From the NCBI RefSeq assembly GCF_000784835.1, contig NZ_JSFH01000009.1, positions 310,001 to 374,000 of the forward strand: DNA of 64,000 bases. Reading direction: 5' to 3'. Shown here piece by piece: positions 32,050-46,431 of the stretch (positions within the stretch are counted from its first letter, which is position 1; each line of letters begins with the position of its first letter). The translations under genes were made by a program, and so were the position numbers. This DNA is from Thermotoga sp. Mc24. Its GTDB lineage: Bacteria > Thermotogota > Thermotogae > Thermotogales > Thermotogaceae. The notes under the pieces were generated by a model. It did no database searches. It saw nothing but the letters and a program-made list of their open reading frames with translations, and was not told the origin of the DNA.

Positions 32050-32550
32050 ATGAGGAATGGTTTCACGATCGTGGAGCTTTTGATAACTATAGCTGTTCTT
32101 CTCATCGGAATACTCTTGGTTCTGGGATTCACAACGAGAACAATTGTTGCCACTGTTCAGTCGTTTACCACGATCGAGTTAGCGGACGATCTTTTGAAGG
32201 CAGCGATGGAAATAAGAAAGGAAATCCTGAAAGCTGGACCTAGAGCGGATCAGATTTATTTTGATCCGGAGAATCCTGAAAAAATTTCTTTCCTTGTGAA
32301 TGTTCCTTTCGGTGGAGAAAAGTACTATTCCAGGAACTACACATACACTATCACATTTGAAAAACCGGACATCAAATTGTACATCTTCCAGGAAGATTCG
32401 AACAGCACAGATACGAGGATACTCGTAACGGATGTTTCAACCTGCACATTTTTGGCGGGTGCCGGTACTGTCTCCTTTGTTATAGGAAAAGAAAAACACA
32501 ACATCGAAAGAACCTATTTCATGAGCGTAGCCCTTCCCAATCTGAAGTGA
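32050..32550 (+). CDS. Prepilin-like protein (class III signal, Glu5 present)
   Basis: 166 residues from the ATG at 32050 behind GGAGGTG. The leader MRNG is followed by FTIVELLITIAVLLIGILLVLGF: a Gly-Phe cleavage site, Glu at +5 and a hydrophobic helix, the mark of type IV pilins and pseudopilins. The rest is a soluble domain with no recognised family. A prepilin peptidase elsewhere would be needed. It is 13 bp from the next pilin-like gene. Confidence 0.82.
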   Translation: MRNGFTIVELLITIAVLLIGILLVLGFTTRTIVATVQSFTTIELADDLLKAAMEIRKEILKAGPRADQIYFDPENPEKISFLVNVPFGGEKYYSRNYTYTITFEKPDIKLYIFQEDSNSTDTRILVTDVSTCTFLAGAGTVSFVIGKEKHNIERTYFMSVALPNLK

Positions 32551-32563
32551 AGGGGTGATCTTT

Positions 32564-34408
32564 ATGAGGAATGGTTCCATTCTTGTGACCACTGTGATAA
32601 TTCTGGTCATCGTTTCCGTTCTGGGAATCTCTGTGTTCTTCGCGTTCAATCAATATCGTGAAAATGTGGGATTGACCGCTCAGAGACTGGAGGCTACTTA
32701 CAGAGCTTCAAATATCCTGAGTCTCGGTGTTGCCTGTCTAAAAAAGCACTTCGGTTTTTCAGGAATGGAAATCAACTGGTCCACTGGAAGTGTGACATGG
32801 TTTGATGATTTCAGAAAGAGAGTTCTGCTTCAGTCAGATGGAGATGCCTGGGAGAATGTTTTCTCATTGCTGGACACAGAAAAATACTACAATCTTTCTT
32901 CAGACATCGATTTCTCTACTGAAGCATCAAAATTGGGATTTTCTAACTTTGAAGCAGTAGCCATTCCGTTCGAGAACAACCCGTTCTTTGCTCTGCTTGT
33001 TGTAAGAGCACAAGTCGGAAAGGCTGTGGTTTACAAATACGCTGTTCTTTCTTCAGACTTTCTGAACAAGTACGCGTATTTCACAGAAAAAGAAACAAGA
33101 CCGGATGGAGATAAGATATACTTCATCACCCAAGATATTATCGATGGGCCTTTCAGATCCAACGATGTGATACACGTGGAAGGAAAGCCTCTTTTCAAGG
33201 GAAGCGTGGAGTTCAAGGATATCGATATCGATTTGGAAGCAGGAGAAGGCCCAAGGTACGAAAATCCGCCTCCGAAGTATCTGACTGACGAAGACATACA
33301 GAAATACAACATAGAAAAGATAAAAGACTATTACGCGAGAGAAATCGAAAGGATAGCGAAGCCAGCGTCTGAAGTTGTTCTTTCGAGTGAACCAGTGGGG
33401 ATCGAGCTTCCGTCAGCTATGATCGTTGAAGAAAAAGAAGGTTGGTACTGGTGGGGAGAATATCAATGGAGATACTACAAGAAACAGCTGGAGCCGGTCT
33501 ATATAATCGAATTCAATGCACCGAGGGGAAACAGTGGAAATGACTATCTAATAAAAGTAAAATACAAAGAAATTTACAGAGAATACTTAAGCAACAATCG
33601 AAAGGATTGGTATTTCATTCAAGAAAGCGAAGGTAGAGAAGTTAATCTTTTCCACATCAAACCCAAACCGAACAGCGATCAGTACCATCTTGTTCTCCAG
33701 GGGGAGGAAGCAAGACGACTTCTTGATCTCGACAGAAACGAGTACGATATCTACTTCAACGGTGTTATCAAAACAGACAGTGATGTTTATCTAAGAAATG
33801 CAAGCAGTCAAGAAAACCAAGAAAACATAAAACCCATGTTCGTCGATGGAAGGTACACCATCGTTGCGAACAACATCTACATAGAAGACCACATCATCTA
33901 CAACGATTACAGAGAAATTCTGGAAGAAATTGCCGATAAGGAAGGAATAAAAGGAAACTCCGATCAAAAAGTTGCACAGGTTTTGATCAGAAAACTCGAT
34001 AAGAACGGAAACATCGAAGAAGACTACTCAGAACTTTTGAAGAATCACGAATCAGACGATTTCCTCAATCTTGTGGCGTACAAGAATGTGGTGATCACCG
34101 ACAAAAAGCCCAACATGAAGATTTTCGCCAGTATATACGCTTTCACCGGAAGCTTTTATGTGAAAGATTACGATAGGGGAGATCCTGTTGGCGAGCTCAC
34201 CATTTTTGGTTCTCTTGCGCAATACGTGAGAGGAGCCGTTGGAACTTTCACTTCGGCGTGGTGGTCGAAGGATAGAAAACCCGTTGTTTTAACAGGTTAC
34301 CGTAAAAACTACATCTACGACTGGAGAATCCTCAAGGGGTTTTCTGTGTTTGGTACCCCCACTGTGCCGAAGGAATCGAACATACTCAATGTGAGAGAGG
34401 TGTATTGA
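32564..34408 (+). CDS. Large prepilin-like protein lacking Glu5 (GspK/PilX-like position)
   Basis: 614 residues from the ATG at 32564 behind AGGGGTGA. The leader MRNG is followed by SILVTTVIILVIVSVLGISVFF, so the cleavage Gly and helix are present but +5 is Thr instead of Glu. Loss of Glu5 with an outsized C-terminal domain is the hallmark of tip minor pilins such as GspK; PilX-type proteins are also large. The remaining ~580 residues are beta-rich and polar with no enzyme motif. The middle (DVIHVEGKPLFKGSVEFKD) resembles DUF4900-type regions of pilus-associated proteins (low certainty). Confidence 0.72.
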   Translation: MRNGSILVTTVIILVIVSVLGISVFFAFNQYRENVGLTAQRLEATYRASNILSLGVACLKKHFGFSGMEINWSTGSVTWFDDFRKRVLLQSDGDAWENVFSLLDTEKYYNLSSDIDFSTEASKLGFSNFEAVAIPFENNPFFALLVVRAQVGKAVVYKYAVLSSDFLNKYAYFTEKETRPDGDKIYFITQDIIDGPFRSNDVIHVEGKPLFKGSVEFKDIDIDLEAGEGPRYENPPPKYLTDEDIQKYNIEKIKDYYAREIERIAKPASEVVLSSEPVGIELPSAMIVEEKEGWYWWGEYQWRYYKKQLEPVYIIEFNAPRGNSGNDYLIKVKYKEIYREYLSNNRKDWYFIQESEGREVNLFHIKPKPNSDQYHLVLQGEEARRLLDLDRNEYDIYFNGVIKTDSDVYLRNASSQENQENIKPMFVDGRYTIVANNIYIEDHIIYNDYREILEEIADKEGIKGNSDQKVAQVLIRKLDKNGNIEEDYSELLKNHESDDFLNLVAYKNVVITDKKPNMKIFASIYAFTGSFYVKDYDRGDPVGELTIFGSLAQYVRGAVGTFTSAWWSKDRKPVVLTGYRKNYIYDWRILKGFSVFGTPTVPKESNILNVREVY

Positions 34409-34409
34409 C

Positions 34410-34814
34410 ATGAGAAATGGGAGTCTTATAGTTGAAACTTTGATAAGTCTGTTTCTCATTCTTCTCACCGTCGTTATATTCACAACGATCATTGTGGGAG
34501 TGGCAAAAAATGTGACACTCACCGAAAAATCCATTGAAACCTTTCTTTTTACCAACTTTGCGTACGATTTTCTTTCCAAGTACGGGGTTGGACATTTGAT
34601 AGAACAAGGTGTGTACGAAGAGATAAACAGAGAATTCTGGAAAGACAAATGGAACGATCAAAATCCTCCTTTTCCTCATATTGATTCTTCGGGTTCAACC
34701 GTTGAGGATGTTGTTTTGCCCAGCAGCAGTGATGTGAAATACAAAAAAATCACGTTGAAGATAAAAATCAACGAAGGAGCTTCAATAGAGAGAATTGTTA
34801 TAATAGGGGATTAA
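34410..34814 (+). CDS. Prepilin-like protein (Glu5 present)
   Basis: 134 residues. The ATG follows the previous stop by one base, so it is probably translationally coupled. The leader MRNG is followed by SLIVETLISLFLILLTVVIF, with Ser at +1 and Glu at +5. The short C-terminal domain has no known family. Together with the two upstream genes it looks like a minor-pilin set. Its stop codon overlaps the -35 of the sigma-28 promoter for flaG. Confidence 0.78.
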   Translation: MRNGSLIVETLISLFLILLTVVIFTTIIVGVAKNVTLTEKSIETFLFTNFAYDFLSKYGVGHLIEQGVYEEINREFWKDKWNDQNPPFPHIDSSGSTVEDVVLPSSSDVKYKKITLKIKINEGASIERIVIIGD

Positions 34815-38397: not shown

Positions 38398-39501
38398 TCA
38401 AAATGAGTACCTCACCCCAACGAAAATTTTGTAGTTTGTAAAGTCATATGATACTCCCAAAAGAACAGTTATACTCTTACTGGGGTAATATCCTGCACTT
38501 AGAAACACCTCCCATGGTGTTTCCTCGAGTGTCCAGTAACTTCTGAAAGAAAGGCTCACAGAAAATCTGTTGAGTTTCAGATCCCCCCTACCCCACCAAA
38601 GTATTCCAGAGAATTTTGTGAGATCGAAGAGTGTGTACACACCAGCTGAGAGTGAAAGATTTCCCACACTGGTACGATCTGAAAATCCAGCTCCCAAGTA
38701 TTTGAACCGCCAGTAGATAACCCCGAGTTTCAATTCTTCTCCAAACAGTTTCGTTTCTACAAGAAGTCCATCGGGAAAAGAAGCAGAAAAATGGATGCTT
38801 TTGTTCAACCAGAGACTTATTCTGGCTTCTGGATAAGAGGAAATCAGTATGAAACTCTCTTCAGATTTTTCTTCTTCTTTACCCATGAACTTCTCAAGCC
38901 CAGAAATATCCCCCGCGACGAAAACTTTTTCTTCAGGCGGTTTTTCTACAACGAGAGCCCTGCAGAAAACGATCATTCTGTGTTCTTTCTCATCCGTTTT
39001 GAATTTGGAATAAGCAATCGGTTGAAAATCCTCTTGAGAGATCCAGATCTTTGTTCGAAGATATGCGCCGTCCAGTTTCATTTCGATATCAGATAGAACA
39101 CTTTGTTTATCCAACTGTTGTGGTGTTATCGAAAGGTACATTTCCTGCACCGTTGTCATTCCCTGTGTTACTGTAAGAATCTCCTCCCTTCCTATACGCA
39201 CAACGGCCGATTTCCCGAGAACAGTCAGGATCCAGGGTTTTGAAAGAATTCTATAAGAATCGCGTATCATGGGGAATTTCACTTTTATGGAAAGTGGAAA
39301 AAACTTCAATTCTACTGTATCACTCGAGTAGTGTATTGAACCCTCGTTGGACTCATCGGTACTGAGATAGAGCTCCTCCAGAGAGACTCTAGTTCCGGTA
39401 CTCTCTTTCACTTCTGCCATTACAAAATGATACATGATCATGGGCTCCGAAAACACCGTTGCAACAGTGAGAATCAGAAAGATCATCAGCGACCATTTCA
39501 T
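38398..39501 (-). CDS. Exported protein with outer-membrane beta-barrel-like C-terminus
   Basis: 367 residues if started at the ATG at 39501 (GTG at 39507 also possible). A signal peptide (KWSLMIFLILTVATVFS) precedes a ~190-residue domain of unknown type. The C-terminal ~150 residues alternate polar and hydrophobic/aromatic residues in repeated strands and end in VGVRYSF. The terminal Phe is the usual end of outer membrane barrels. An LolA/VioE-like N-terminal fold is possible but not shown. It starts at the stop of the secretin gene. Confidence 0.62.
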   Translation of the reverse strand: MKWSLMIFLILTVATVFSEPMIMYHFVMAEVKESTGTRVSLEELYLSTDESNEGSIHYSSDTVELKFFPLSIKVKFPMIRDSYRILSKPWILTVLGKSAVVRIGREEILTVTQGMTTVQEMYLSITPQQLDKQSVLSDIEMKLDGAYLRTKIWISQEDFQPIAYSKFKTDEKEHRMIVFCRALVVEKPPEEKVFVAGDISGLEKFMGKEEEKSEESFILISSYPEARISLWLNKSIHFSASFPDGLLVETKLFGEELKLGVIYWRFKYLGAGFSDRTSVGNLSLSAGVYTLFDLTKFSGILWWGRGDLKLNRFSVSLSFRSYWTLEETPWEVFLSAGYYPSKSITVLLGVSYDFTNYKIFVGVRYSF

Positions 39502-39503
39502 GA

Positions 39504-40667
39504 TCACTCACTTCCCTGGATTTCCGCCTTGATGAATATGTAAAGTTCTTTCTGGGAATCCTTTTTCGTCGTACCACCGAAGAAGTATCTTATGAGTGGA
39601 ATCTTGTTCAGTATGGGTACACCGGAACTGGTCTGGGCGCTGTCTTCGATGGTGGCGCCGGAAATCACAACGGTCTGACCATTTTTCAGGAAAAGTGTTG
39701 TAGAGAGTTCGTTCTGTTTTACAACGAATGCTCCGAGTTTTTCTCCTGCAAAGTGACTGACCTTTGGCGAGAGTGTAAGCTCGAGTTCTTCTTTGTCCAT
39801 CACACGTGGTTGAATGTCGATACTCACTCCAACGTCTATGGACTCGATCCTGCTCACCGCTCCCTCAGCCTCAAGGAGAACCACCTGTCTTTCTCCCAAG
39901 AAGAGAGAAGCTTTTTCTCCACTCTTCACGATGATCCAGGGGTCTGCTGTGATCTTTGCTTTCTGATTCTCTTCGAGAAGTTTCAGCTTCGCTAGGATCT
40001 GACCAAAGACATCCGTCTGAATATTGATGAGTCCTGTTACCAGACCGAGAGTAGCCGCCCAGTTCTCGTTGAATTCCTGATCAGAACCGAAGGAGTAATC
40101 TAAACTGTTCAATCCCAGCTCGTTCGAGTAATCTTTGGAAACTTCTGTGACGATCACGCTGATTTTCACCTGTGGTATCGGGATGTCTATCTTCTTGAGA
40201 TCTTCCTCGAACTCCTGCGTGATCTCTTCAGGTGCTGTGATGGTTACCATGTTGTTCTTCTCGTTGAATTTGACGTAACTCCTGTAAACTACTGGTAGAA
40301 GTTCCTGGACGTCGGCTGTGGTTATGTATTTCAGCTTGTAGGTCTTTGTAACTGCAAGGTATCTGAATGCAGGATTCGCCGGGTCCGGTGATCCCACAAA
40401 ATAAAAGCCGTCCATCTTCTTGAAAACGTATCCTCCAGGCATGAGGATCATCTTCAGTGCCTGTTCCAGGGGTACTTCGTTTAGCTCCATAGTGATGAAA
40501 CCAGTCACAGTCGTGTCCGCTATGATTGGAATTCCTGTCTGCGCGGATATATCAGCGAGAGCATCCAGAATGTAGGTGTCCTGGAATATGTTGCTCACCA
40601 GGGGTTCCTCCTGTGCCGTCATCACCGCTGTTATCAACACGAATAAAACGAAACCGAGTTTTCTCAT
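39504..40667 (-). CDS. Short secretin (GspD/PilQ family)
   Basis: 387 residues. A signal peptide is followed by an N0/STN-like domain (about 25-75), one N1-like domain (about 105-165) and the secretin core (about 180-385). The family signature VPILNKIPLIRYFF is at 350-363. The protein is much shorter than GspD or PilQ (600-900), with few N domains. Secretins form gated outer-membrane rings for type II/IV pilus or type III export; no ATPase, platform or pilotin gene is adjacent. It overlaps the Ig-like gene upstream by 4 bp. Confidence 0.88.
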   Translation of the reverse strand: MRKLGFVLFVLITAVMTAQEEPLVSNIFQDTYILDALADISAQTGIPIIADTTVTGFITMELNEVPLEQALKMILMPGGYVFKKMDGFYFVGSPDPANPAFRYLAVTKTYKLKYITTADVQELLPVVYRSYVKFNEKNNMVTITAPEEITQEFEEDLKKIDIPIPQVKISVIVTEVSKDYSNELGLNSLDYSFGSDQEFNENWAATLGLVTGLINIQTDVFGQILAKLKLLEENQKAKITADPWIIVKSGEKASLFLGERQVVLLEAEGAVSRIESIDVGVSIDIQPRVMDKEELELTLSPKVSHFAGEKLGAFVVKQNELSTTLFLKNGQTVVISGATIEDSAQTSSGVPILNKIPLIRYFFGGTTKKDSQKELYIFIKAEIQGSE

Positions 40668-42289
40668 TCCCCATTCCTCCCTTCCATCCGGAAAGACTTT
40701 CTCAAAACGATCGGTGCCCTACCGTAGTCGCACCTCGCGAGCAGTTCGTACTGTCCCTCTTCCAACACGACTGGTATGAAGATGCTGAAGATCCTCTTCG
40801 TTCCTGGAAGCACAGGATTCGTTGACGAGATCTCTTCCTGAATGAGACTTTCCATTTTCTCCGGTATTATGAGACCTTCGTTCGTCACCTGCTGAGACGT
40901 GATCCTGTTCAAACCGAAAGTGATCTTTGGCAGAAGATGATAGTTCCCCGTGTTCTCAAAGACGATGTCCGCGTAAATACCATCTTCCTTCACGGTGTAA
41001 ACCAGATCGGCGCTTGCTTCTTTAGTTATATCTTCGTCTCTTCCAGCGAACACAAGAAGATTTGCCCCCACTTCCGTCTGTAAATCGCCTTCTGTTTTGA
41101 AGACCACATCCGCGTAGTAACCTCCCGTGAAATCTTTTGGAATTCTCACGGCGACACGTACGTTCCTGGACTGTCCAGGTCTCAAGCTGAAAGAAGATGG
41201 AGTGAGGTTGATCCAGTTAGGAGGAGTACCCCTTTCTTCTTCCGGAAGGATCTCTCCGTAGAGGTCGTAAACCAGAGGCAAGATCTTTCCTTCCACCTGA
41301 AGGGTTTCTTCTCCCAGATTCGATACTTTCACTATCGATGATCGGTAAGATCCTGGAACAGCTTTGATTTCGATGTCTGCTGGATCTACTGTGATCATCA
41401 CAGGATTTGCTTCCTTCTTCTCTTCTTCGGTTTCCACTTTTTCTGAAGTTACTGTGAAGGTGGTCTCTACCACGATCGGTCTTCTTCCACCGTAATCGAC
41501 AACGGCTCTTGCGACGTATTCTCCGGGAGGAAAGAATCTTCTTGTGATCGTTCTCATATTAACCGTGCTGTCGGGGAGAACAATACCTCTTCCCCCACCA
41601 AGCGGCATCTTCGCTATTGTTCGACCTTCTTTTGTCTTTATCGTGAGTGTGCCTTTCGCGACGATGTGAACGTTGCTCTTGTTCAAAACACCGAGCGTGA
41701 AGACAAGGGCACCGTTTCCAATCTGCATCCTTATTGAAGGAATGTCATCTGATCTTTCCACTTTGAAGTAAGCGGGAAATGCTTCCACCCTCTGACTTGT
41801 TCCGGAGACAACAACTTCTAAAAAACTCGCCATCCTGTATTTGAATTCGATCTCACCATATGCTCCCTCTTCAGGGGGTCGTTGTGTCTCCCGCGATTGA
41901 GGTGTTTGGATTTCAAAGGTAACGGCACCGTAGAGTCCTCCAGAAGCACCCCTTGGAACGTTCACCGTGACGATGATCGTTTTGGTTTCTTGGGGAGGAA
42001 CGGTGATCGTGTCGGGTTCCACCTTCACCCATCTTGCGATCGAATATTTTGTGCTTCCCGGCTGTTTCAGGTCGTACGCTCCATCCTCAGTTTCTGTTAT
42101 GTCCATCACCATCGCTTTCAGTGTGATGGATTCGAATTCGCTGTCGTTCTCCAGGAAAATTTCGTAGCTGAAACTCGTTCCCGGGTTCACGGTTTTACTC
42201 ACCACAATGGGATCCATTCGAACGGAGATACCCTGCGCGAGAAAAACACTACTCATCAGAATCAGAACAATTAAACTTATCCTTCTCAT
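40664..42289 (-). CDS. Secreted Ig-like/pilus-chaperone-like protein (DUF916-like repeats)
   Basis: 541 residues from the ATG at 42289 (42295 also possible). A signal peptide is followed by two similar halves. Each has a beta-sandwich opening (VVSKTVNPGTSFSYEIFLENDSE; near 305 VPGSYRSSIVKVSNLGEETLQ) and a conserved PRGASGGLYGAVTF or PKDFTGGYYADVVF strand pair. This layout resembles DUF916/WxL-associated and fimbrial-chaperone-like Ig domains. It is encoded with the secretin and barrel protein, so it may be a structural or chaperone part of the same export system. Confidence 0.7.
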   Translation of the reverse strand: MRRISLIVLILMSSVFLAQGISVRMDPIVVSKTVNPGTSFSYEIFLENDSEFESITLKAMVMDITETEDGAYDLKQPGSTKYSIARWVKVEPDTITVPPQETKTIIVTVNVPRGASGGLYGAVTFEIQTPQSRETQRPPEEGAYGEIEFKYRMASFLEVVVSGTSQRVEAFPAYFKVERSDDIPSIRMQIGNGALVFTLGVLNKSNVHIVAKGTLTIKTKEGRTIAKMPLGGGRGIVLPDSTVNMRTITRRFFPPGEYVARAVVDYGGRRPIVVETTFTVTSEKVETEEEKKEANPVMITVDPADIEIKAVPGSYRSSIVKVSNLGEETLQVEGKILPLVYDLYGEILPEEERGTPPNWINLTPSSFSLRPGQSRNVRVAVRIPKDFTGGYYADVVFKTEGDLQTEVGANLLVFAGRDEDITKEASADLVYTVKEDGIYADIVFENTGNYHLLPKITFGLNRITSQQVTNEGLIIPEKMESLIQEEISSTNPVLPGTKRIFSIFIPVVLEEGQYELLARCDYGRAPIVLRKSFRMEGRNGE

Positions 42290-42314
42290 CCCCATCACTC
42301 TCCCATAAAAAATA

Positions 42315-42340
42315 AAAGGCGAGGGAAGCCCCTCGCCTTC
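42315..42340 (-). terminator. Terminator between the paralogue set and the Ig-like/secretin set
   Basis: AAGGCGAGG and CCTCGCCTT arms (42316-42324 and 42331-42339) close a 6-base loop. On the minus strand the stem is followed by TTATTTTTTATG. It begins 15 bp after the 42355-43005 gene stop. On the + strand it is followed by CCTTTTTT, but no gene uses that. Confidence 0.85.
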
Positions 42341-42354
42341 CTTTTTTGAAAGAT

Positions 42355-43005
42355 TTATCTCTGGCTGTTCACGTATTCTTCAAGATCTTCCACGTAGTTT
42401 CCTTCCTCGTCGATCCAAGGTTTCTGGTTTTTAAGCGTGAGTATAATTGTGCCGCTATCTCTGTAAGTGGATGCACTGTTGCACCTTTCAACATGAATTC
42501 TATTCCAGAGTTTGTAGGTCGCACCGTTATGGAGAATTTGGCTGTCAGGTACCAGTAGGGTCACGTCGTTGAGATTTGGAGCGGGTGTCCATATATCTTC
42601 TGGTATGGGAAGCTGTGGTCCGAACGCGTAGTCCACTTCGATCGTGTCGTCAACACTTGTACCCGTTGCGTATTTCAAGTGATCAAATCCACTGAATCTG
42701 ATCTCAAGATCGCTGTTGCTCTGAAGAGTTGCTGTTATACAGTTGGCAACGTAGATTCCAGGTTTTCTCACAAACCAGGTCCACTTCGTTCCTGTGAGGC
42801 TCCATTTCACCCATTGGGCAACCTGAACTTCCAAAGTCATGGGAATTTCCCATACATGCCTGTTACAACTTCCGCTCATTCCTTCACTGATAAACGCTCT
42901 TGCGTTGTCAGTATTACCCTCGTATGCGTAAACCGGTACTTCTTGCTGGGCAAAAAACAAAGAACCCACTATCAAAACCATCGTTATCAACAGAAGTCTT
43001 CTCAT
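42355..43005 (-). CDS. Secreted protein, paralogue family member 1
   Basis: 216 residues with a signal peptide (RRLLLITMVLIVGSLFFA). No known family. It shares long blocks with the next gene: EVQVAQW-(6)-TKWTWFVRKPG at 61-83 and CNSASTYRDSG followed by LTLKNQKPWIDEEGNYVEDLE near the end. Four cysteines, two in GSCNR and RCNSAS, match positions in the paralogue and may form a disulfide. The GGAGGGG ribosome site gives the ATG at 43005. It is the last gene before a terminator. Confidence 0.75.
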   Translation of the reverse strand: MRRLLLITMVLIVGSLFFAQQEVPVYAYEGNTDNARAFISEGMSGSCNRHVWEIPMTLEVQVAQWVKWSLTGTKWTWFVRKPGIYVANCITATLQSNSDLEIRFSGFDHLKYATGTSVDDTIEVDYAFGPQLPIPEDIWTPAPNLNDVTLLVPDSQILHNGATYKLWNRIHVERCNSASTYRDSGTIILTLKNQKPWIDEEGNYVEDLEEYVNSQR

Positions 43006-43049
43006 ATCAATCCCCTCCTCAATTGTTCGCGATGTAACACTTTACCAAC

Positions 43050-43727
43050 TTACCTTTCGTTGGTCACGTAATTTTCCAGATTTTCTACGTAGTTTCCTTC
43101 TTCGTCGATCCATGGTTTCTGATTCTGAAGTGTGAGATAGATATACCCGGTGTCTCTGTAGGTAGATGCGCTGTTACATTCAACTACCTTGATCCTGTTC
43201 CACAGATAGAAGGTCATACCATTGTGGAGTTCCTGGCTGTCTGTCAGCGTGTAGGAAAGATTGTTCACCTCAGGTGCTCTTACCCAGCTTTCAGGATTTG
43301 GTATTCCTTCATCGGTCATAACGGTGTAGTACGCTTCAATCTCCGGGTTGACACTGCTTGTTCCTGTGTAGGTTGGGTCATCAAAGCCGCTGAAAGTCAC
43401 CAAAACATCTCCATTGCTGGCAACGGTCCCCACGATAGCGTTTGCGTAGTAGTCTCCAGGTTTTCTCACAAACCAGGTCCATTTCGTTGCGTTCAGACTC
43501 CACTCGAGCCATTGAGCAACCTGAACCTCTGTTGTGAATTCAATCTGCCACTCAGGTTTGTTACAAGATCCATCCTTAGGGAACGCACTAAAAGCTCTTG
43601 CCAGATCGTTTGTTGCTGGCAGATTGATATACTGGCCATCCTCGTACTTCCAAACTTCGAGTGGTGTCTGTGCCAGTACAAAAGAAAACAGTGCTCCCAT
43701 AAGAACTAACCAAAGTAACTTTCTCAT
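43050..43727 (-). CDS. Secreted protein, paralogue family member 2
   Basis: 225 residues with a signal peptide (RKLLWLVLMGALFSFVLA). It is a tandem copy of the preceding product: EVQVAQW at 67-73, TKWTWFVRKPG at 81-91, an SGFDDPTY strand and the CNSASTYRDTG and QNQKPWIDEEGNYVENLE end blocks. DNA identity is high across TTTTCTCACAAACCAGGTCCA. The 44-bp gap to its copy has only a ribosome site, so the two are one message. Function is unknown. Confidence 0.75.
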   Translation of the reverse strand: MRKLLWLVLMGALFSFVLAQTPLEVWKYEDGQYINLPATNDLARAFSAFPKDGSCNKPEWQIEFTTEVQVAQWLEWSLNATKWTWFVRKPGDYYANAIVGTVASNGDVLVTFSGFDDPTYTGTSSVNPEIEAYYTVMTDEGIPNPESWVRAPEVNNLSYTLTDSQELHNGMTFYLWNRIKVVECNSASTYRDTGYIYLTLQNQKPWIDEEGNYVENLENYVTNER

Positions 43728-43750
43728 ACAAACCCCTCCTTCTACTCACC

Positions 43751-44686
43751 TTATGGTGAGGTATCGACGTACAGTTTAGAGTTGTTGATGGTGAAGGTTA
43801 TAACGCCTGCGCTGGTGTAGATGTTCGTTGACAGAGTCTTTGGAACGTTGATTTTTTGCCACAGAGAAAATCTGTCTTCCAGAAAACTGAGGTCATCAAA
43901 CCACTCTGTAGGAATCTCGTCACCATAGGCCACTTTCAGATCCACACTATCTTTTTCGTTCGAAGGATCGGGAAAATTCACGTAGATTGAAAGGTATGTG
44001 TTTGCTTCAACTTCCAGCACTTTCGCGACGTACACGCCGGGTTTCTTCACAAACCAAGTGACCTTTGTACCGCTCAGATGGATCTCTAGGCACTGCGAGA
44101 GCCTTCCTCCCCATGCGGTTTCTTCTCTCCCACTGCTGCTACTCACAACTCCATGAAGGAGAATGTAGTATTTGTTGTTCAGCCTGTTCAACCTGGTGAA
44201 ACTGTTCTGGAAGAGAAAAGAGAGAGGAACTTTGAAGATGTAGATGCTCACGGGTGGGTCAAACTCTTCCTTAAACGGAAACTGACCCGGCGCTTGATTC
44301 CCATCGGGCTCTTCGGAGAGAACGTTGAGGTGTGTTTCTTCCAGATTCCACTCATCGTCGATATCCACTCTGACGTAGAGATATTCTGAATCGTTCCAGA
44401 CGGTGACGGTTCCCACCACCGTGTCCTGACCTGCCCAGAAGCTGAAAAGTTTCTCCCCATCTCCCAGTTCGTATTCCATGTAGTAATACCACTGACCTTT
44501 TCCACGATAAGAGTTCATTTCAACAACACTCCCTGTGGTTTGTCTCTGAGCAGATGGGAGAACGAACACGTCTTCCTTGATCTCTTTTTCCCATCTTCCG
44601 AGTTCTTTGTTATACTTGTACATCGTTGTAGAAAAAGAAAGAGCGAAAAGAAAAACAATGAAAACTCCCAATCCCCACCTTCTCAC
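43751..44686 (-). CDS. Secreted protein, paralogue family member 3 with extra N-terminal domain
   Basis: 311 residues from a GTG behind AGGAGGCGG. A signal peptide is followed by an added beta-rich domain (about 55-190) with GTVTVWNDSEYLYVRVDID and THLNV, a pattern seen in various secreted surface proteins. The family domain then comes, including TKVTWFVKKPG at 207-217. Its end is shorter than in the other two and lacks the QNQKPWIDEEGNY block. It is the first gene of the trio. The upstream promoter is not clear. Confidence 0.72.
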   Translation of the reverse strand: MRRWGLGVFIVFLFALSFSTTMYKYNKELGRWEKEIKEDVFVLPSAQRQTTGSVVEMNSYRGKGQWYYYMEYELGDGEKLFSFWAGQDTVVGTVTVWNDSEYLYVRVDIDDEWNLEETHLNVLSEEPDGNQAPGQFPFKEEFDPPVSIYIFKVPLSFLFQNSFTRLNRLNNKYYILLHGVVSSSSGREETAWGGRLSQCLEIHLSGTKVTWFVKKPGVYVAKVLEVEANTYLSIYVNFPDPSNEKDSVDLKVAYGDEIPTEWFDDLSFLEDRFSLWQKINVPKTLSTNIYTSAGVITFTINNSKLYVDTSP

Positions 44687-45121: not shown

Positions 45122-45396
45122 TGCACCACGCTAGGCGGGGGGCTGGCGGTCCCCTGTACCCGAAATCCGCCGTACGCGGGGCCGAATTCCCACCCGAGGC
45201 TCTTCGGGTCGGGAAACGGCGTGACTCGGGGGCGGTGAAGACCGGGTCCCACGCAACGGGGCCCTGTGAACCTGGTCAGGCCCGGAAGGGAGCAGCCATA
45301 AGCAGGTGTCTCCGTGTGCCGTGGGGGAGCCCGGTCGGAGCTTTCCGATCACGCACGCCCCGGTCTGGAGAAGTCGACGGTGGGTGCGTGGTGCAT
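45122..45396 (+). ncRNA. ffs: Signal recognition particle RNA, long form with Alu domain
   Basis: The ends pair perfectly (TGCACCACGC at 45122-45131 with GCGTGGTGCA at 45386-45395). The S-domain apex has the Ffh-binding signature GGTCAGGCCCGGAAGGGAGCAGCC near 45272-45297. The ~275-nt length and 5' region fit the Gram-positive-type long SRP RNA rather than the ~110-nt 4.5S form. It is very GC-rich against the background, as expected for a structured RNA at high temperature. TTTTTCTTCT follows as a terminator. It guides Ffh/FtsY-dependent membrane protein insertion. Confidence 0.93.
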
Positions 45397-45837
45397 TTTT
45401 CTTCTGGCTACTCCCTCGTTGAAACGTTAGCCCTCATGTTCTGCATCTGCACGGTTGTGATGGTAGGCCTTTTCTCCCTGTCTCTTGCCATGAAAACACG
45501 CGCCCGCCTCGTTTACGACATCGATCTTCTAACCGACGAATTCTACGCGGTGGATTTTATGAGACACGAATACGAGGTGAAAGCCGCGGCGTCTTCTTCT
45601 GTTTCTGTCACATTGAACAGTTTGATTTTTAACGCGAACTACGATAAAAAGAGTGGAAAGATTTCTTATCTTGTGATGTTCAAGGACGGCCTGTACAAAA
45701 TCGTTCGTTTCGGTCTGAGCGGAGAGGGAAACAACTACCTGATAGAAACAAAAAAGGAAATTCACTTTTCACAGGAAGGGAAGGTATTCTCCGTAACAAT
45801 AGGAGACACTATCTATGACCTTGGGATCTCAGAGTAG
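45391..45837 (+). CDS. Prepilin-like protein starting inside the SRP RNA 3' end
   Basis: About 148 residues if started at the GTG at 45391 (45388 also possible). After MHFSSG comes YSLVETLALMFCICTVVMVGLFSL, a prepilin site with Tyr at +1, Glu at +5 and a hydrophobic helix. The first ATG downstream would delete this signal. The start and any ribosome site (GGTGGG at 45379-45384) lie in the 3' strand of the SRP RNA, so expression must come from readthrough or from an internal start. The soluble domain has no known family. It overlaps the convergent antiporter gene by 9 bp. Confidence 0.62.
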   Translation: MHFSSGYSLVETLALMFCICTVVMVGLFSLSLAMKTRARLVYDIDLLTDEFYAVDFMRHEYEVKAAASSSVSVTLNSLIFNANYDKKSGKISYLVMFKDGLYKIVRFGLSGEGNNYLIETKKEIHFSQEGKVFSVTIGDTIYDLGISE

Positions 45838-46431
45838 CCCTCTGTGTTTTATGAAGTAGTAGACGATGATCCAGCTACCCAGCATCACTTTCAGGTACAC
45901 CACCATGTTCGCCGGAACTATGAGGTTTCTTCCCGGGATTATCAGAACAACGAGGAAAAGAAAAACGATCATGATGAACTTCTCCAGAAAGTACGCTTGC
46001 GTTCTTTCGAACTTCCTCTCGAAGTTTTCAAAATCTTCCACCATGGCGATCAGAGCGAGCGCCGTTCCACCCGCAACCCCAGCAGAGAATCCACCGCCTG
46101 GACTCACATGGCCTTCGAGGGCAAGGTACAGCGATCCCACGAGGAGAAAGAACGCTATGAATCTGGCGAAGATCCTGATAGTGACGTCCGATATGCCTTT
46201 TATCTCCTCTGGAGTAGGAAGGTAGGCCATGTGGAGAGAAACTCCAAGCACTGCGAGCGAGAAAACAAGAACCTCGAAGACAGTATCGTACACCCTGTTC
46301 AGAAGGTAGATCTGGGTGATGGGATTTTTCACCACGGGGTTTTCAAAGTTCACTTGAACCTTTTCGAAACTTCCGTTCAACAGAACAACAAAACAAAAAA
46401 CAACGAAGATGGTGATCCACATCCATTTCAT
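45829..46431 (-). CDS. Antiporter subunit: MbhE-like region fused to MnhB
   Basis: 200 residues. After an N-terminal helix, residues ~48-72 read NRVYDTVFEVLVFSLAVLGVSL, the pattern of the MrpA C-terminal (MbhE) segment. The rest is an MnhB domain with its conserved PGGGFSAG near 110 and three more helices. It is an inner-membrane part of a cation/proton antiporter. It overlaps the upstream fusion gene by 4 bp and ends the long minus-strand gene train without a visible terminator. Confidence 0.83.
   Translation of the reverse strand: MKWMWITIFVVFCFVVLLNGSFEKVQVNFENPVVKNPITQIYLLNRVYDTVFEVLVFSLAVLGVSLHMAYLPTPEEIKGISDVTIRIFARFIAFFLLVGSLYLALEGHVSPGGGFSAGVAGGTALALIAMVEDFENFERKFERTQAYFLEKFIMIVFLFLVVLIIPGRNLIVPANMVVYLKVMLGSWIIVYYFIKHRGLL

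Follow-up and report, generated by a model that had tools for sequence, protein, structure and literature searches.

Three tandem prepilin genes

The window analysed here, a stretch of 64,000 nucleotides of Thermotoga sp. Mc24, raises the question of which machine could be served by three adjoining prepilin genes that have no pilus motor gene beside them, and what the largest of their products might bind. The preliminary description had reported three tandem prepilin genes with MRNG leaders, one of them without Glu5, and all three could be recovered as open reading frames (Table 1). The genes X1, BIG and X3 were arranged head to tail, with intergenic gaps of 13 nt between X1 and BIG and 1 nt between BIG and X3, and each product carried the leader and a hydrophobic N-terminal helix of approximately 21 residues after MRNG. 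In the translated ORFs, position 5 of the mature protein was Glu in X1 and X3 and Thr in BIG. Among aligned relatives, Glu5 was found in 14 of 14 X1 and 12 of 13 X3 sequences (the remaining one had Asp) and in none of the 30 BIG sequences; the earlier remark that the 614-residue middle protein is GspK-like in having Thr for Glu5 was thus confirmed. GspK is the largest tip subunit of its system and lacks Glu5. Judged from the sequences, the identical MRNG leaders within the trio are nothing special, since relatives use MKKG, MRKG, MKSG, and MRG.

Table 1. Features of the prepilin locus and its surroundings in the window
Feature	Position	Strand	Description
X1	32050-32550	+	Glu5-type minor prepilin, 166 aa, MRNG|FTIVE; predicted GspJ/XcpW-type fold
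BIG	32564-34408	+	Large tip pilin without Glu5, 614 aa, MRNG|SILVT; predicted ComZ-like, pilin fold with inserted beta-solenoid
Hypervariable block of BIG	33407-33697	+	Residues 282-378; antiparallel strands before the main solenoid run; 34 to 193 residues among 30 relatives
Second variable stretch of BIG	34151-34300	+	59% identity to G091; loop length changes
X3	34410-34814	+	Small Glu5-type minor prepilin, 134 aa, MRNG|SLIVE; GspI/PilV-type place inferred, family matches weak
Short secretin	39504-40667	-	387 aa; Pfam Secretin E 1.1e-37; partner proposed in the preliminary description
Large SRP RNA	45126-45391		RF01854, 191 bits
Fourth prepilin	45391-45837	+	Glu5-type, MHFSSG|YSLVE, GTG start; weakly ComGF-like

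Apart from a weak DUF4900 match in BIG, X1 was the sole member of the trio recognised by Pfam (N_methyl, 21.4 bits against a cut-off of 21.2). DUF4900 matched 20 of the 30 BIG proteins and was not found mentioned in the literature searched; BIG had no NCBIfam match. Weak similarity to the PilX_N and PilV models could be observed in the trio. In the X3 family, the GspI model matched one of 13 members (E 0.002) and the ComGE model five of 13 (best E 0.0028), all of them weak matches; judged by size and position, X3 would take the part of GspI. Searches of PDB sequences with the three trio families and with the large pilin of G093 (see below) gave no good relative past the pilin N-termini. A search of the plasmid collection gave no match, and neither promoter patterns (7 against 5.9 in shuffles) nor terminator patterns (5 against 3.8) were in excess.

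Pilus machine of the genome

Among machine-type genes, the window holds only the short secretin, in agreement with the earlier statement that no pilus motor or major pilin gene is near. A motor or major pilin hidden in the window was rejected as a possibility, as these genes were placed elsewhere, on contigs C4, C7, C9, and C11. PilB, PilC, PilD, and the major pilin, for which a genome search had been proposed, were all found outside the window, together with PilT and a second, large secretin. The genome thus carries one type IV pilus machine unlinked to the trio, consisting of PilB, PilT, PilC, PilD, PilQ, and PilA. Two proteins scored above the T2SSE cut-off and were read as PilB and PilT from their length and context, while one PilC and one prepilin peptidase (PilD) were detected. 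The two secretins of the genome were the PilQ beside PilC and the short one in the window. PilM/N/O/P were assigned by their position between PilC and PilQ, three of these ORFs having no convincing Pfam match. PilQ itself (L012, 7437-11294) had 1285 aa, a length well above that of usual secretins, and gave Secretin_N and KH-like matches along an extended middle portion.

The major pilin PilA stands alone, away from the trio. A complete pilus locus with minor pilins of its own, the case held earlier to speak against a tip role of the trio, was not seen, and in an N-terminal scan PilA was the only Glu5 prepilin in the 50 kb surrounding the machine genes. The rest of the genome was covered with two pilin profiles, which detected PilA and X1 and missed X3 and the fourth prepilin; these genome-wide searches, insensitive to diverged members, revealed no further pseudopilin.

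Predicted structures and comparison with known tip systems

The AlphaFold model of BIG, based on a 16-sequence alignment, had a mean pLDDT of 86 and a pTM of 0.84. The modelled topology consisted of a helix (residues 4-60), strands (129-166), an inserted part (167-589), and a last strand (600-613), and the insertion was predicted to be a beta-solenoid placed between the penultimate and the last strand of a GspK-like pilin domain. Both structure programs returned ComZ (6QVI) as the best PDB match, with a VIA Z score of 15.6 over 322 residues, and ComZ was the sole Foldseek match below E 0.001 (4e-7). The superposition was loose (rmsd 11.3, TM 0.24/0.28), which indicates that the domain angle in the model either differs from that of ComZ or is mispredicted. 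The second neighbour of the model was FfIBP (4NU2; Z 13.0, 195 residues, rmsd 3.4). A PDB sequence search with the 30-row BIG profile did not contain 6QVI at E values up to 10; since sequence searching does not connect the two proteins, the likeness of BIG to ComZ is one of predicted fold and falls short of showing common descent.

The X1 model reached a pLDDT of 87. Its structural matches were XcpW (Z 10.8, rmsd 3.4, 114 residues), TTHA1219 (Z 10.7), EpsJ (Z 9.9), and GspJ (Z 8.8), and the top ten rows consisted of GspJ-family chains, entries containing one, or Thermus TTHA1219. X1 is therefore predicted to have the GspJ fold.

The published background drawn on here came from four papers (PMC6561018, PMC5637354, PMC4029938, PMC12024867). 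ComZ is proposed to act as the DNA receptor at the tip of the competence pili of Thermus, and its binding of DNA and of PilA2 has been measured. It carries Gly at position 5 and a GspK-like pilin domain with a solenoid inserted between the penultimate and the last strand; FfIBP is reported in the ComZ paper to be closest to this solenoid, which turns into antiparallel strands towards its end (residues 301-362). The ComZ-PilA2 system of Thermus thermophilus (with PilA1 and PilA3) shares with the trio a pilin of very large size that lacks Glu5 and has a GspK-like domain. The likeness extends to a predicted FfIBP-like solenoid before the last strand, to small pilins with T2SS-like folds adjoining the gene, to the thermophilic host, and to natural transformation, which has been reported in the genus Thermotoga. 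However, no sequence similarity could be detected, and Thr takes the place of Gly at position 5. The leader of BIG is clean and short, whereas ComZ was not called a PilD substrate. The trio comprises three genes rather than five and lies away from the major pilin, and BIG has two variable stretches. DNA binding is a measured property of ComZ and a putative one of BIG.

The GspI-GspJ-GspK complex (XcpV-XcpW-XcpX) likewise has three subunits of which the largest lacks Glu5, and X1 models as GspJ/XcpW. The insertion of GspK is described as alpha-helical and lies between strands three and four, in contrast to the predicted beta-solenoid before the last strand of BIG, and X3 corresponds to GspI by position and size only. 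The PilV/PilW/PilX minor pilins of type IVa pili have in common with the trio the small Glu5 pilins and a PilX-like member without Glu5. In contrast to those systems, nothing resembling PilY1 was noticed among the neighbours of the trio, and the receptor domain would be fused into the pilin.

Conservation of the gene set

The conservation of the set was evaluated in 41 loci, namely the window and the stretches L048-L087, by an N-terminal scan for a leader, Glu5, and a charge-free helix. Sixty-three Glu5 prepilins were found in 117 kb beside BIG, against six in 946 strand-kb elsewhere; the majority of these six distant candidates look like real pilins. Within 1.5 kb of BIG, two Glu5 prepilins were present in 23 loci, one in 17, and none in one, so that 40 of the 41 loci had at least one; several loci stop at contig ends. 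The excess of 63 prepilins near BIG over six elsewhere indicates that the arrangement of the trio is more than chance. Families differed in gene order (X1-BIG-X3, BIG-X1-X3, or small pilins ahead of BIG), and the partners were retained throughout. A PilA-like gene adjoined the set in three of 40 loci (L073, L074, and L082).

In the window, the scan returned four Glu5-type candidates: X1, X3, the fourth prepilin, and a candidate at 46428, which sits in a membrane protein and is an evident false positive. A looser scan of the window gave eight candidates. Besides BIG and the three Glu5 prepilins, these included four judged false, namely three without Glu5 and, again, that at 46428. In three related loci of one family (L057, 6248-6814; L060, 8211-8516; L080, 8339-8815), a gene between a small pilin and BIG encoded a helix of prepilin type that lacks Glu5, for example MDITLSG|LIAS.

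Across 103 Thermotogota genomes, BIG was detected in 45 by a single-sequence search and in 62 by the 30-row profile, 40 of the latter at E 1e-60 or better. The loci obtained from the relatedness search are largely contigs that were also taken from these genomes, and the two sets of counts overlap and are not independent. PilC was present in 101 of the 103 genomes, compared with 62 for the BIG profile, which indicates that the trio is not obligatory for the Thermotogota pilus. In family f10 (G035-G055), BIG was absent from all 21 genomes and PilC was distant (best E 5e-15, whereas almost every other genome reached approximately 1e-29 or better); these genomes may rely on another kind of pilus or secretion machinery.

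Proposed tip complex

Considering the ComZ-like model of BIG, the GspJ-type model of X1, and the single unlinked pilus machine, X1, BIG, and X3 probably form the minor-pilin tip complex of the only type IV pilus of this genome, with BIG as a ComZ-like cap; the probability of this reading was put at roughly 0.78. The earlier proposal of a minor-pilin tip complex with a large Glu5-less subunit of the GspK class is thereby supported by predicted fold, by conservation, and by the presence of the machine in the genome. Sequence or prediction supplies the trio and its conservation, the absence of Glu5 from BIG, the pilus machine, and the folds, and we infer how the tip assembles, where it sits, how it is processed, and what it binds.

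In an order modelled on GspIJK and ComZ-PilA2, PilD would trim the short leaders of X1, BIG, and X3, after which the three helices would come together within the inner membrane to make a starter resembling GspI/J/K. BIG would cap the end of the filament and, as it lacks Glu5, would need no subunit above it. PilB and PilC would then add PilA subunits beneath the cap, and the filament would exit via PilQ with the solenoid of BIG foremost, exposing BIG as a receptor for DNA in natural transformation, for a surface, or for both. PilQ, encoded beside PilC, would be the natural secretin partner of the trio.

The GspJ and GspK-class folds could also belong to the tip of a type II secretion pseudopilus instead of a true pilus. 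This is very unlikely, as the second T2SSE gene encodes a PilT-like ATPase, the minor pilins of Thermus with T2SS-like folds belong to pili, and no further pseudopilin appeared in the profile searches, within their limited sensitivity.

Relationship to the short secretin

The short secretin, which the preliminary description had placed approximately 6 kb away as a possible partner of the set, lies 4.7 kb beyond the end of X3. The trio, this secretin, and its neighbours could constitute a separate secretion or pilus system, as suggested by their distance of less than 5 kb in the window and by a weak phylum-wide association among the matches listed (odds ratio 3.1, p 0.014, genomes taken as independent). 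For these counts, BIG was required to match at E 1e-60 or better, and the short secretin was a short open frame distinct from the long PilQ, a few being partial. Among the matches listed, the short secretin occurred in 58 of the 103 genomes and the full or near-full large pilin in 40; 29 genomes had both, 11 had the pilin only, and 29 had the secretin only. The secretin was kept in all seven genomes of the genus, including G093, which lacks BIG as do 28 further secretin-bearing genomes, and in G090 the two genes were located on different contigs. Moreover, the secretin is encoded on the strand opposite to the trio, and the genome has one PilB and one PilC for any such system. Secretin partnership was consequently rejected as the main reading on the distribution across 103 genomes, the two genes being only loosely associated, and a separate system of this kind is considered very unlikely.

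The secretin belongs to a conserved block of secreted proteins (38398-44686, complementary strand), which also encodes what may be an outer-membrane barrel (38398), a protein of 544 aa carrying Ig-like domains, and three small secreted proteins that are related to one another, including two tandem copies about half identical to each other. The block was kept in five congeners and may represent an envelope system of its own.

Sequence variation and possible exchange of the tip

The neighbouring genes are named here rubrerythrin, ferritin, FlaG, FliD, FtsA, FtsZ, and aminotransferase, which we take them to encode from sequence and gene order and from named Thermotogota relatives. From the aminotransferase gene to fliD, the window and G091, a related species, shared approximately 95% nucleotide identity, which fell to 54% at 33401-33550 and to the value given in Table 1 for the second stretch. 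Both low-identity stretches are located inside BIG, with 70-90% identity between them. For residues 282-378, dN was 0.33 and dS was saturated, compared to 0.010 and 0.15, respectively, for residues 1-126. As saturation of silent sites coincides with the variable block, imported sequence explains that block better than positive selection, which was set low as a cause of the variation in BIG. The trios of G091 and G092 were nearly identical, yet the two genomes differed by as much as a third towards the left end of the region compared, which would be expected after transfer of a segment. Reading the two topologies side by side, rather than from a superposition, the variable block of BIG appears to lie in the same place as the solenoid end of ComZ.

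In G093, a genome of the same genus, identity to the window was 23-46% over the trio, the level of unrelated sequence, between flanks of 85-95% on the left (79% in the last interval, which straddles the boundary) and 87-94% on the right. The cassette at this place (L115, 4453-7242, between ferritin and flaG) consisted of a 220-aa ORF, an ORF of approximately 99 aa (MSLIE, no evident leader), a 452-aa pilin, and a 170-aa Glu5 pilin; two of its ORFs had no Pfam match. The 452-aa pilin lacked Glu5, matched DUF7305 (E 1.8e-19) with weak bactofilin and ice-binding matches, and showed no BLAST similarity to BIG. Its relatives could be found in 12 other genomes of the 103, mostly as partial or weak matches.

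Tentatively, the site between ferritin and flaG/fliD could be a tip slot, at which the machine is kept and the tip is exchanged, either by recombination at the solenoid end or as a whole cassette. If this is true, the pilus would be re-targeted by swapping its cap, similar to the exchange of phage tail fibres. The exchange of tips, partial or complete, at one fixed site would be the surprising part, and the tip variants would provide a natural series for studying how a pilus tip picks its ligand.

Possible ligand of the tip

DNA uptake and surface attachment appear about equally likely as the task of BIG. BIG may be the DNA receptor of natural transformation and the counterpart of ComZ, with X3 or X1 as the counterpart of PilA2, a reading to which we give somewhat less than an even chance. 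Its closest fold is that of ComZ, for which the binding was measured in Thermus, and two Thermotoga strains are reported to be naturally transformable. A published table of competence genes includes the motor, secretins, peptidase, major pilin, ComEA, and ComEC; minor pilins are absent from it, and its authors call the genes scattered. The trio would be the obvious missing part of this Thermotoga list, which has no minor pilins and no DNA receptor at the tip, and ComZ-like tips would then extend beyond Thermus. However, fold likeness shows no ligand, and the ectodomain of BIG is acidic (pI 5.1, net charge -18), which is unfavourable for DNA binding. A hypervariable part would also be unexpected if DNA were bound unspecifically, although the DNA-binding lysines of ComZ lie elsewhere, being described between its two domains.

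A tip adhesin whose distal end is diversified by recombination, with polysaccharide, mineral, or other cells as its target or phage escape as its benefit, is a tenable reading that we hold with slightly more reserve. It could account for the two drops in identity within BIG, the saturated dS of the hypervariable block, the wide range of block lengths, and the different cassette of G093 at the same site. The block is Trp-rich in several lineages, with 5 Trp in 97 residues here, although many relatives have no such enrichment (0 to 1 Trp). A sugar-binding face formed by a Trp-rich block was considered; it would hold in the window and some relatives and fails in others; the sum of W, Y, and F in the block was 19, not above that of the best 97-residue stretch elsewhere in BIG. 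A loose match of BIG to tapirin, a beta-helix protein of Caldicellulosiruptor, was obtained, but its Z score of 7.1 is within the chance range. No description of Thermotoga tips or minor pilins was found in the literature searched, mostly open-access papers. One deletion could test what a Thermotoga pilus grips.

Fourth prepilin

The fourth prepilin noted in the preliminary description proved to be real, having both Glu5 and a leader. All five congeners checked carry it at this position, with 58-94% identity; nothing in these comparisons linked it to the trio. Among family models ComGF came out best, with E 0.0019, well short of the cut-off. The gene overlaps the large SRP RNA by a single base, its GTG start beginning on the final nucleotide of the RNA.
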